Assembly (NCBI RefSeq): GCF_015101885.1
Contig: NZ_CP062941.1
Coordinates: 1,302,001-1,366,000 of the forward strand
DNA length: 64,000 nucleotides
From: Massilia litorea
GTDB taxonomy: Bacteria; Pseudomonadota; Gammaproteobacteria; Burkholderiales; Burkholderiaceae_D
Direction: 5' to 3'
Both the position numbers and the translations under genes were made by a program. Positions 49,219 through 64,000 of the stretch are shown here, one piece after another. A model generated the notes under the pieces. It was not told the DNA's origin and made no database searches. It saw nothing but the letters and a program-made list of their open reading frames with translations. The first letter of the stretch is position 1, and each line of letters starts with the position of its first letter.

Positions 49219-50334
49219 ATGTTAGTTGGCGTTCCAAAAGAGATCAAAAACCACGAGTACCGGGTCGGCCTGACCCCGCCTTCCGTGCACGAGCTGGTCG
49301 CACGGGGGCATCAAGTGATTGTCCAGAAGAACGCCGGTACCGAGATCGGCCTCCTTGACGAGCAATACGTGGCGGCCGGCGCCACCATCGTCGACACGGC
49401 CCAGGAGATCTTTGCCCGTGCCGAGATGATCGTCAAGGTCAAGGAACCGCAACCGGGCGAATGCGCGATGCTGCGCGAAGGGCAGATCCTGTACACCTAT
49501 CTGCACCTGGCGCCGGATCCGGAGCAGACGGCGGCCCTGGTGCGATCGAAGGCGGTCTGCATTGCCTACGAGACGATCACTGGTCCCGGCGGCGGCTTGC
49601 CGCTGCTGGCGCCGATGAGCGAAGTGGCGGGGCGGATGTCGATCCAGGCCGGCGCGGCCCATCTGGAAAAATCGAAGGGCGGCATGGGCCTGCTGCTGGG
49701 CGGCGTACCGGGCGTGGCGCCGGGTCACATCGTGATCATCGGCGCCGGCGTGGTCGGCACCAATGCGCTGCAGATGGCGGTCGGCACCGGTGCCCGCGTT
49801 ACCGTGCTCGATAAAAACATCGAGCGCCTGCGCCAGCTGGACCTGGTGTACGGCAACCGCATCGCCACCGTGTATTCGACGGGACACGCGATCGAGGAAG
49901 CGGTGCTGGCGGCCGATCTCGTGATCGGCGGTGTGCTGGTACCGGGTGCGGCCGCGCCGAAGCTGGTCACGCGCAGCATGATTTCAAAAATGAAAAAGGG
50001 GGCAGTCGTGGTCGATGTGGCGATCGACCAGGGCGGCTGCTTCGAGACCTCGCATGCGACGACCCACGCCGACCCGACTTTCGTCGTCGACGGTGTAATC
50101 CACTACTGCGTGGCGAACATGCCGGGCGCCGTGGCCCGTACCTCGACTTTCGCACTGAACAACGCGACGATCGGCCATGCGCTGGCGCTGGCCAGTAAAG
50201 GCTGGCGCCGCGCCTTGCTGGACGACGCCCACCTGCGCCAGGGTTTAAATGTCTGCCAGGGCAAGGTCACCTATGAAGCCGTGGCCAAGACCCTGGGCTA
50301 CGATTACGTGCCCGCCGATTCCCTGCTGGCCTGA
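49219..50334 (+). CDS. ald: Alanine dehydrogenase
   Basis: Ald converts L-alanine to pyruvate and ammonia with NAD. The 371-residue protein has the family start [27 protein letters not shown], the active-site regions VKVKEPQ and YLHLA, and the NAD motif [18 protein letters not shown], with the block [18 protein letters not shown] further on. AGGAAG precedes the start. It sits 33 bp behind putA, so proline and alanine catabolism may be co-expressed under the putative PutR. The 3' end overlaps the convergent mtnN gene by 31 nt. Confidence 0.97.
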
Positions 50335-51104
50335 TCGCTTATTTTCACATCCTGCGCCTGCAGGCAAAAGCGCCTGACGATGTAACAGGCATATACCGCG
50401 GCCACCGATTTTACGAAACGTAAAAAATCGGTGGCCGCGTTTTCATTGGCGTTGTCCGAAATCGTCCGGATCACGGCGCAAGGCACGTCAAGCTCATGGC
50501 AGACCTGGGCCACTGCCGCCCCTTCCATTTCCACCGCCACCAGCCCGGGTAAAGCGGCATTCAAGCCGTTGATGTGCTCGCGGTCATCAATAAACTGGTC
50601 GCCGCTGGCGATCAGGCCGCGGTGAATCCTCGGCCGGGTCAGCCTGAACACCGCTTTTTCATCCGCTGCGATCGCTTCCATGAAATCTTCGTCGAGGAAA
50701 GAGGAGGCGGCGTCAAACAGGCGCGAGGCCAGCTGGTGGTCGGCGGGGAAATGCGTCAAGCCGAGCAAGGGGACTTCGAAGCGTGGAAACAGGGGACTGG
50801 CATCCATGTCGTGCTGGACCAGCGATTCGGCCACCACGATGTCGCCCACGTTCACCGTTTTGTCGCCGCTACCTGCCACACCCGTAAACAGGATGTGGGT
50901 AACTCCGAACTTCTCCACAAGCGTGGTGGTCGTCACCGCGGCGGCAACCTTGCCTATACGCGACAGAACGCACACAGCGTCGATTTCCCACAGCTGTCCG
51001 ACCCAGTACTCGCGTTGACCATGGATGAGCTTGTAGGGGCTCTGCATGGCTTCCACGAGCCCCTGCTGTTCTTCGGACAGCGCGCTGATGATCCCGAGAC
51101 GCAT
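50304..51104 (-). CDS. mtnN: 5'-methylthioadenosine/S-adenosylhomocysteine nucleosidase
   Basis: MtnN (Pfs) splits MTA and SAH to free adenine, part of methionine salvage and autoinducer-2 production. The 266-residue protein has the family start [25 protein letters not shown] and the active-site [20 protein letters not shown], with the catalytic Asp region [14 protein letters not shown]. It is somewhat longer than E. coli MtnN (232) through a loop of about 20 residues and a short tail. ATG 51104 is chosen over an in-frame TTG six codons earlier. Its promoter must lie at the left edge of the origin-like region. Confidence 0.93.
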
Positions 51105-51213
51105 TTTTTGACGGTTTTCCAAGCTGGTGAAAGTGAAAAAAGGCGTTTTTCAGCCGTGGATCAGGGTAAACACCGCTTGTCCACGCTGTTCGCGCTTTTC
51201 TCTGTTTACAGTA

Positions 51214-51432
51214 ATAAAGGTATGTATACAGATTGGTAGTGATAGTAAACGCCTGTTTTTCTGTGGATAAGACGGGTTTACTCCACAAGATCAGCAGTTT
51301 AGGTCGACCTAAACGAGCTGGACAAGGATTGTATCGAGCCTGCACCGATGTTGGAAAAAAAACGTCGGCTTGTCAGTAAACGGTGTTCTGCACATCGGGT
51401 CCTGTGGATATGCAAGGGCTTGTCCACAGCCG
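51214..51432 (+). repeat. Origin module copy 1
   Basis: In order: ATAAAGG, GTATACAG (51224-51231), trinucleotide run TAG-TGA-TAG-TAA (51237-51248), DnaA box TGTGGATAA (51262-51270), box-like TTCTGCACA (51386-51394), TGTGGATAT (51403-51411) and TTGTCCACA (51420-51428). From the first box to the TGTGGATAT box is 141 bp, and from there to the inverted box is 17 bp. Confidence 0.8.
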
Positions 51433-51792
51433 GGATAGCTTTCACCGCGCTTTTAGCCTGGATACGGTCTGGACAGGGATACGGCCAACCGGTTTTGAGG
51501 AAAACGGGGTCCTCATGATCCTTGACGCGATCGTTTTCGCCATCGCCATCGGCATGTTGCTTTCTGCCAAACCATTGAGCAGCCGAACAGCGGCAGCTTG
51601 GCGTTCAGTCCGGAACGCATGCGAACCGATTTTTTTTCCAAGCGCTTGTAAGTCGAAGTCTTGTCTTCAGAGAAACCGGTCGCGTTTTTTTTCCTGCCAA
51701 ACCTTTCAGTTGTCGATAGCAGATGGCTCGTCTCCTGGCCAGGAGCCGGCGCGAGCCGGTTTTCACACACGCTTCGCTTCATCTATTTAATT

Positions 51793-52012
51793 AAATAAGG
51801 ATGTATACAAATTGGTAGTAGTAGTAAACGAGGCGGTTTACTGTGGATAAGCCGGCTTTTCTCCACAGTCTCAAGGGTTTACGCGCGTTTCGATGTCCTG
51901 AACAAGCCCTGTATCGCGCTTGCACCGAAGGTGTACAGATTTTGCGGCGTGCGGATTCGCACTGCTTCTGCACATTCGCTCCTGTGGATATACATGGGTT
52001 TGTCCACAGCCG
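51793..52012 (+). repeat. Origin module copy 2
   Basis: AAATAAGG after the AT-rich 51784-51799, then GTATACAA (51803-51810), perfect trios TAG-TAG-TAG-TAA (51816-51827), TGTGGATAA (51842-51850), TTCTCCACA (51859-51867), TTCTGCACA (51966-51974), TGTGGATAT (51983-51991) and TTGTCCACA (52000-52008). The spacings are again 141 and 17 bp. This is the copy closest to a canonical unwinding element. Confidence 0.85.
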
Positions 52013-52202
52013 CCTGGCCATGCAGGAAGGGGTTTCCTCGAGTGCAGGGACTGGCAGGCAGGAGAGGCGGGTCAAGGCAGGGGCGGTTTCGTAAAACTTG
52101 TCGTGCCAGGATGGATCTGATGCAAGGGGCCAACAGTTCGGGCAGGGAACAAAAAAAATTTTTTGCGAACCCGCGGCCTGCGCGTTCTCAGGTTTACAAC
52201 CA

Positions 52203-52419
52203 AAATAGGTATACAAGGATAGTAGTAGTGTTAACAACTGGCGTTTTCTGTGGATAAGCCGGTTAACGGATGAGAAATCATCGGTTTACGCGCGGTATAA
52301 GCCTGTGATGGCGGCTGTATCGTTGCGGTGACAAATCTGGACAAGATTTTGGCGTCCACAAAAAAACGGGTTTCTGCACAATCCGTTCCTGTGGATATCA
52401 AGAAGCTTATCCACAGATG
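52203..52419 (+). repeat. Origin module copy 3
   Basis: AAATAGG, GTATACAA (52209-52216), trios TAG-TAG-TAG (52220-52228), TGTGGATAA (52249-52257), TTCTGCACA (52372-52380), TGTGGATAT (52390-52398) and perfect TTATCCACA (52407-52415). The spacings are again 141 and 17 bp. Confidence 0.8.
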
Positions 52420-52507
52420 CGCCTCTGGCTTTACGGTGACGATCTGGTAAGCTTGCCTTGGTGAATTGAAAACCGCATTGAAAACCCACTCGACAATGGA
52501 GGCGGAC

Positions 52508-63150: not shown

Positions 63151-63166
63151 TGTTTCACGTGGAACA
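63151..63166. promoter_or_regulatory. parS site 1
   Basis: TGTTTCACGTGGAACA matches the ParB-binding consensus TGTTTCACGTGAAACA at 15 of 16 positions and partly overlaps the terminator of the TSUP gene. Confidence 0.9.
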
Positions 63167-63200
63167 AAGCCGGGAAGCGCTCCGCGCCCCGGCTTTTTTT
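63167..63200 (+). terminator. Terminator after the TSUP transporter gene
   Basis: AAGCCGGG (63167-63174) pairs with CCCGGCTT (63188-63195), followed by T residues to 63200. Confidence 0.88.
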
Positions 63201-63217
63201 ACGTCCGGCGCCGGGAT

Positions 63218-63233
63218 TGTTCCACGTGAAACA
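63218..63233. promoter_or_regulatory. parS site 2
   Basis: TGTTCCACGTGAAACA matches the parS consensus at 15 of 16 positions (the variant base is the mirror image of that in site 1). Confidence 0.92.
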
Positions 63234-63255
63234 CAACTCGACAGCCACCCGACTG

Positions 63256-63271
63256 TGTTCCACGTGAAACA
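63256..63271. promoter_or_regulatory. parS site 3
   Basis: TGTTCCACGTGAAACA, identical to site 2, 38 bp further on. Three sites in 121 bp mark a ParB-loading centromere. Confidence 0.92.
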
Positions 63272-63360: not shown

Positions 63361-64000
63361 ATGCTATTTCCAACTGAATTTGACGTGATCGTCGTCGGCG
63401 GCGGCCATGCCGGCACCGAGGCCGCGCTCGCGTCCGCACGCATGGGGCAGAAGACCCTGCTCCTTACCCACAACATCGAAACCCTGGGCCAGATGTCCTG
63501 CAATCCGTCGATCGGCGGCATCGGCAAGGGCCATCTGGTCAAGGAAGTGGACGCTTTAGGCGGCGCGATGGCGATCGCCACCGACGAATCCGGCATCCAG
63601 TTCCGCATCCTGAACTCCTCGAAAGGTCCGGCAGTGCGCGCCACCCGGGCCCAGGCCGACCGCATCCTGTATAAGGCGGCGATCCGCTCGCGTCTGGAAA
63701 ACCAGCCGAATTTGTGGCTGTTCCAGCAGGCGGTCGACGACCTGATGGTCGAGGGCGACCGCGTCGTCGGCGCCGTCACCCAGATCGGCCTGCAGTTCCG
63801 CGCCCGTGCCGTGGTGCTGACGGCCGGTACTTTCCTCGACGGTAAAATCCATGTCGGCTTGCAGAACTACACGGCGGGCCGTGCGGGCGACCCGGCGGCC
63901 GTCTCGCTGTCGAGCCGTTTAAAGGAACTCAAACTGCCGCAGGGCCGCCTGAAAACCGGCACGCCGCCGCGCATCGACGGCCGCAGCATCGATTATTCGG
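63361..64000 (+). CDS. mnmG: tRNA uridine-5-carboxymethylaminomethyl synthesis enzyme MnmG (GidA), N-terminal part
   Basis: MnmG, with MnmE, modifies the wobble uridine of several tRNAs using FAD and a folate. The first 213 codons are seen and the gene runs off the right edge. It shows the FAD motif [19 protein letters not shown] (residues 11-29), [45 protein letters not shown] and [14 protein letters not shown], all strongly conserved. In many bacteria mnmG is followed by rsmG, parA and parB and lies near oriC; the three parS sites upstream fit that. Confidence 0.98.

Follow-up and report, generated by a model that had tools for sequence, protein, structure and literature searches.

The intergenic locus and its three modules

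The window, meaning the whole stretch of 64,000 nucleotides that was analysed, corresponds to C1:1302001-1366000 on the chromosome of Massilia litorea (5,188,430 bp, treated as a single circle). Three modules of the same orientation lie between a nucleosidase gene and a nitronate monooxygenase gene, and parS sites and mnmG are found 11 kb from them. The features are as follows, in window coordinates.

50304-51122, minus strand: PNP_UDP_1 nucleosidase gene, left neighbour
51217..51431, plus strand: module 1 (whole), nhmmer 175 bits, model R1 141.9 bits
51211..51261, plus strand: module 1 unwinding segment with TGTATACA and TGGTAGTGATAGT (DnaA-trio-like)
51262..51270, minus strand: module 1 DnaA box 1 (TTATCCACA on the minus strand)
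51403..51411, minus strand: module 1 DnaA box 2 (ATATCCACA on the minus strand), 141 bp from box 1
51420..51428, plus strand: module 1 DnaA box 3 (TTGTCCACA), 17 bp from box 2
51797..52011, plus strand: module 2 (whole), nhmmer 167 bits, model R1 134.8 bits
51791..51841, plus strand: module 2 unwinding segment, three contiguous GAT trios (3'-5', by eye)
51842..51850, minus strand: module 2 DnaA box 1
51983..51991, minus strand: module 2 DnaA box 2
52000..52008, plus strand: module 2 DnaA box 3
52202..52418, plus strand: module 3 (whole), nhmmer 151 bits, model R1 119.5 bits
52195..52248, plus strand: module 3 unwinding segment with TAGTAGTAGT
52249..52257, minus strand: module 3 DnaA box 1
52390..52398, minus strand: module 3 DnaA box 2
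52407..52415, plus strand: module 3 DnaA box 3 (TTATCCACA), identical letters in 37/37 three-module loci
from about 52508, plus strand: nitronate monooxygenase gene, right neighbour
63151..63271, strand not assigned: three parS sites (63151, 63218, 63256), all differing from TGTTTCACGTGAAACA at a single position
63361..64000, plus strand: mnmG (gidA), 5' part, profile match

Past the end of the window, mnmG is followed by ORFs whose translations look, by eye, like those of rsmG, parA, parB and atp genes. Two equally oriented copies of TTATCCACA, separated by 185 bp, lie between the parB-like and an atpI-like ORF, some 15 kb to the right of the modules (L050:3726 and 3911; C1:1369726 and 1369911). 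ORFs of 108-148 aa, called mechanically, overlap the module stretch. The gap lengths between modules are free to vary in relatives, which speaks against genes in the stretch.

A preliminary description of this DNA had reported three diverged modules with two fixed internal distances, and both the places and the distances were recovered. The profile matches listed above coincide with the three modules. TGTGGATAA starts at 51262, 51842 and 52249, and TGTGGATAT follows 141 bp later, at 51403, 51983 and 52390. TTRTCCACA then lies 17 bp beyond each TGTGGATAT, at 51420, 52000 and 52407. A further conserved element, TTCTGCACA, precedes the second box by 17, 17 and 18 bp in modules 1, 2 and 3. The pattern TGTGGATA[AT]-N132-TGTGGATAT-N8-TTNTCCACA had three matches in the surrounding 446 kb, all of them the three modules.

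DnaA boxes are clustered at the locus, as at an oriC, with 13 sites of at most one mismatch in 1.4 kb. When box-like sites were counted in 322 tiles of 1385 bp (mean 0.33 per tile), the two highest counts (9 and 6) came from the tiles over the locus. The window as a whole holds nine TTWTNCACA matches, compared with 1.48 expected, a number reached by 0/100 shuffles; three to four of the nine fall inside the modules.

Another locus with DnaA boxes was seen elsewhere on the chromosome, at C1:4973561-4974529 (L062:8561-9529). It consists of seven 37-nt units spaced 124-194 bp apart, each carrying two paired DnaA boxes (TGTGGATAAAATTGTGCGCAAG type), and a CTTGATTC-like sequence (IHF-like, by eye) stands behind several of them. 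Similar DNA was found in 36/36 other genomes of the genus and in 1/24 from other families. A fair guess is that this is a datA/DARS-like DnaA-titration locus.

Conservation and age of the triplication

The module count was followed in 37 genus loci, that of M. litorea and 36 from relatives, each 7.5-14 kb long. A profile search found exactly three full modules in 34 of the 37 and two in G002, G015 and G029. Six further genomes of the genus added four with three modules (G115, G138, G184, G197) and two with two (G171, G237), so that three modules are present in 38/43 genomes and two in 5/43; three are thus not strictly needed. Omitted from the count of genus loci were weak reverse hits of about 20-22 bits (in G005, G010, G019 and one Duganella); locus L094, apparently the same contig as in G024, and loci L100-L103, with no match to the box pattern, were also left out. 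Some genomes have an inverted module pair in place of direct repeats (L173 of G015, L177 of G002, G237, G217, G227, G238, G186, G228). In Duganella (L097 and L098, 2523-5984), two modules stand 3.2 kb apart, with room for genes between them.

Module geometry was compared in 37 three-module loci, namely 34 of the genus, two from Massilia and one from a Janthinobacterium MAG. The distance from box 1 to box 2 was 140-143 bp and that from box 2 to box 3 was 17 bp in 111/111 modules; copies found by profile favour similar spacing, yet the profile does not fix spacing to the base. All three modules had the same orientation in 37/37 loci. The gaps between the modules ranged from 122 to 426 bp and from 93 to 1476 bp.

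The copies group by position. In 117/123 cases a module had as its nearest relative the same-position module of another genome, and position labels changed five times on a quick tree with long Janthinobacterium branches, compared with a mean of 53 in shuffles. Mean module identity was 0.56-0.67 within a genome and 0.67-0.68 between genomes at the same position. Grouping by position, together with within-genome identity not above that between genomes, places the triplication before the genus. A recent tandem duplication without function would fit the similarity and tandem order of the copies, but the identity values and an internal spacing that stays fixed while the gaps vary run counter to it, and we take it as refuted. 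The modules are instead old and constrained, as the preliminary description had proposed from the spacing: they group by position, with fixed spacing and free gaps. The copies show neither decay nor homogenisation, and each has been kept.

Outside the genus, model R1 matched 176/195 genomes of the family, in 41/44 genera. In 39 family genomes, mostly of few contigs, modules were counted by hand, since raw match counts were inflated in some genomes by weak reverse-strand matches. Two modules were present in 23 genomes, three in 14 (eight of genus g1, three of g30, two of g39 and one of g28), a weak single one in one and none in one. Reverse rows (G107, G164, G181, G206, G214, G226) and a 53-bp piece (G187) were excluded from this count. 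The single module, in G168, lies beside mnmG and scored 31.6 bits, and 5.1 bits in another search.

Matches were also obtained in 101/250 genomes of the order; the 94 from other families were mostly weak. Twenty of these loci, 19 from other families, were taken further, and the neighbouring genes were tested in five. Relatives in the other families differ from the Massilia locus in having mostly one match, of about 20-61 bits, with different internal spacing. In L237, L243 and L254, three genomes from two other families, dnaA and dnaN flank the weak match, a hint that the origin unit has shifted with respect to dnaA and mnmG during evolution; L249 has its match close to a kdtA-type gene. Our guess is that a single unit is the older state and that units were gained within the family.

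Markers of a probable chromosomal origin

The dnaA gene lies at 1069.8 kb, 284 kb from the modules. Near the modules stand the parS cluster and conserved origin genes (mnmG; rsmG, parA and parB by eye), as would be expected around oriC. With at most two mismatches, a parS site was found in a single other place of the genome, C1:4907141, itself with two mismatches. The gap ahead of dnaA, after an ORF read by eye as rpmH, has one exact box, TTATNCACA.

Strand polarity was followed with GGGCAGGG, which we take to be a KOPS-type sequence. In 19 samples of 20 kb per arm, the right arm gave a forward to reverse ratio of 41:1 and the left arm one of 2:26 (38 of forty samples, those at 1300 and 1430 kb omitted). 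From 1100 kb up to the modules the ratio was 4:13, the polarity of the left arm, and from the modules to 1546 kb it was 7:0. A second flip lies between 3951 and 3972 kb, except for one reversed site at 3925 kb. A dif search of the whole genome, for which the pattern resembled that of E. coli and three mismatches were allowed, found nothing. A relaxed search of the 110 kb around the flip gave a dif-like site at C1:3970756-3970783 that shares 23/28 letters with E. coli dif, compared with 18 for the best match in a 446-kb control. The point opposite the modules (3948 kb) is 23 kb from this site, and the point opposite dnaA is 307 kb from it.

The dif-like site and the two arms place the modules at the centre of the replichores, though the best single GGGCAGGG switch in the M. 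litorea genome falls at 1302-1314 kb, 39-51 kb to their left. We take this offset as noise because few copies of GGGCAGGG occur around the origin (25 within 446 kb) and the switch point has no rival cluster of boxes. In G032 the switch was 37 kb left of the modules; in G026 the sites to the left were mixed (5:6), and in G107 the signal was weak (5:8 before the modules, 7:4 after).

Skew measures were less sharp. Cumulative GC skew, the check suggested in the preliminary description, was almost flat and too weak to place the origin in the M. litorea genome; it decides neither way, and the other origin markers favour the modules over dnaA. In G107, with a contig that begins at dnaA, mean GC skew was negative from dnaA to the modules and positive beyond (seven samples each). 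A skew computed from sixty octamers, chosen for their strand bias in the two arms, failed to locate the switch in the M. litorea genome, where its minimum was at 1227 kb. The octamer switch was 14 kb from the modules in G032 (3419 kb, with a near-tie at 3345 kb) and 33 kb from them in G026 (254 kb, with a near-tie at 273 kb).

Distances in the family were compared in the same 39 genomes. In 38/38 genomes with modules, mnmG was at most 27.2 kb away (median 11.5 kb). A usable distance to dnaA was available for 35 genomes, after three with split chromosomes had been set aside and with nine distances taken as linear. It exceeded 100 kb in 20 of the 35, and the modules were closer to mnmG than to dnaA in 32. 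In three g50 genomes, the modules lie 7 kb from dnaA and 11.5 kb from mnmG. A DnaA domain was found within the first 1.1 kb of the record in 14/39 genomes, in which numbering was evidently begun at dnaA.

The locus could also be a datA/DARS-like region that titrates or reactivates DnaA, with the real origin at rpmH-dnaA. The 284 kb between the modules and dnaA, the 14/39 records that begin at dnaA and the closeness of modules and dnaA in genus g50 are what such a reading could draw on. It is nevertheless very improbable, since left-arm polarity holds from 1100 kb up to the modules, the dif-like site lies opposite the modules and not opposite dnaA, and parS and mnmG are at the modules while the gap ahead of dnaA has its one exact box. 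The locus is therefore very probably the chromosomal origin, oriC, as judged from these sequence markers. The candidate triplicate origin of the preliminary description thus holds up as far as sequence allows, with parS, mnmG, the GGGCAGGG arms and the dif-like site all pointing here.

A probable origin of three units

All three modules have a DNA unwinding element beside their boxes (least stable 0.04-0.09%). In each module the least stable 40-bp window is at the left end; for modules 1, 2 and 3 it ranks in the top 0.074, 0.044 and 0.089% of the 446 kb, whereas the gaps between the modules reach down to 1.4 and 3.3% only. The unwinding segment contains a TGGTAGTRRTAGT-like sequence. Across the 37 three-module loci, the left segment was among the least stable 1% of its own 446 kb in 109/111 modules, compared with 13/74 gaps. 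It was less stable than the remainder of its module in 37/37, 37/37 and 32/37 of modules 1, 2 and 3. The segment of module 3 was the least extreme (median rank 0.26%, compared with 0.03 and 0.06%).

For the basal unwinding system (BUS), PMC8287927 gives a strict rule of three contiguous NAN trios within 16 bp. We required at least three contiguous NAN trios at most 20 bp from box 1. Such runs were present in 10, 21 and 10 of the 37 modules 1, 2 and 3 (27, 57 and 27%; shuffles 52, 48 and 37%). The bare trio rule thus does not separate modules from shuffles. At least two GAT trios within NAN runs were found in 16, 57 and 24% of modules 1, 2 and 3, compared with 1-2% in shuffles. The modules resemble the BUS of PMC8287927 in that TAG-rich (3'-GAT) sequence and A+T-rich DNA come after a DnaA box, on its right side. 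They differ in that most of them fall outside the strict rule (41/111 pass even at 20 bp), and the idea that every module is a strict BUS was rejected. By their letters the segments are trio-like, and we make no stronger claim. A universal IHF site was rejected as well, IHF-like sites being present in 13, 1 and 25 of the 37 modules 1, 2 and 3.

In order the modules are a compact version of E. coli K-12 MG1655 oriC, in which the unwinding segment is followed by TGTGGATAA, middle sites and a facing TTATCCACA; we take these two boxes to be those named R1 and R4. In the modules the unwinding element and both boxes stand in this order, and an IHF-like site, which the E. coli type has between R1 and R4, is present in some of them. 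Box R1 to R4 spans 180 bp in E. coli, compared with 158 bp from box 1 to box 3 here. Both loci are beside mnmG-rsmG; the distance to mnmG is about 0.1 kb in E. coli and 11 kb here. The E. coli-type richness in GATC (SeqA control) is lacking in the modules, which have 1, 0 and 0 GATC compared with 14 in a 332-bp E. coli stretch. Finally, E. coli oriC is one unit, whereas the Massilia locus has three.

Taken together, the locus is probably a composite oriC, in which a betaproteobacterium of the Massilia type has three complete origin units that all point the same way. This reading draws on a replichore centre near centromere sites, three unstable segments, a fixed geometry and an old, kept triplication. 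Each unit of ~215 bp comprises an A+T-rich unwinding segment, a DnaA box, ~130 bp with weaker sites and a tight facing box pair. In bacterial origins, DnaA binds to its boxes, and the unstable segment next to them is engaged by a complex with a fixed geometry. DnaA may bind every unit here, and the 141/17-bp geometry would place the DnaA complex on the adjoining unstable segment, so that every unit may be able to open DNA. The units would work jointly as a single origin with one firing per cycle, and the extra ones may supply DnaA-binding capacity and back-up opening sites.

Whether all units open is where two readings of this oriC part, and we hold each of them only tentatively. A single module may open and load the helicase, with the other two acting as DnaA-binding regulators (titration, timing or complex stabilisation), much like one of the halves in a bipartite origin. 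Box 1 is perfect in 36/37 copies of module 2, and weaker variants occur in part of modules 3 (TGTGGACAA in 13/37) and 1 (TGTTGATAA in 8/37), as this division of labour would have it; the less extreme segment of module 3 and the 5/43 genus genomes with two modules fit it too. Mere binding sites, on the other hand, would need no unstable segment, and 109/111 modules have retained a segment from the least stable 1%. The geometry and the unstable segment kept in each module argue for three opening-competent units. It is accordingly just as conceivable that the composite consists of three separately competent units, each unwound by DnaA and each loading helicase, and that unit number is an evolving dial of initiation. 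Across the family this number ranges from one to three, at times with an inverted pair. Module 2 seems the likeliest main opener because its box 1 is perfect in 36/37 copies and its trios are the most regular.

Textbook bacterial origins have one opening unit, and bipartite ones have two unlike halves. As set out in PMC4285127 and PMC4403523, bipartite origins (B. subtilis, H. pylori) have two subregions, with a spacer gene that is usually dnaA and the DUE in one of them. The Massilia locus is like them in that the DnaA boxes of one origin form more than one cluster; it is unlike them, and falls outside that class, in having three like units with their own unstable segments in one shared gap without dnaA. 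DoriC also lists putative double origins, with more than one oriC candidate per chromosome, e.g. in Ralstonia pickettii 12D (PMC4403523). These are two loci, 150-882 kb apart in 3/4 cases listed, compared with three units within 1.2 kb here. A search of titles and abstract starts in open-licence PMC gave, among the matches listed, no three-unit bacterial origin and no Massilia or Janthinobacterium oriC paper. Going by PMC4285127 and PMC4403523, known multi-part origins are bipartite or consist of two candidate loci, and three units would be new.

Two consequences follow for the family. Genomes numbered from dnaA may begin hundreds of kb from the likely origin (dnaA lies 287 kb from the modules in G026 and 363 kb in G107), an offset that matters for replication-timing and gene-dosage work. 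The number of units, mostly two or three, differs between genera and would offer ready comparisons for why cells keep extra opening units.
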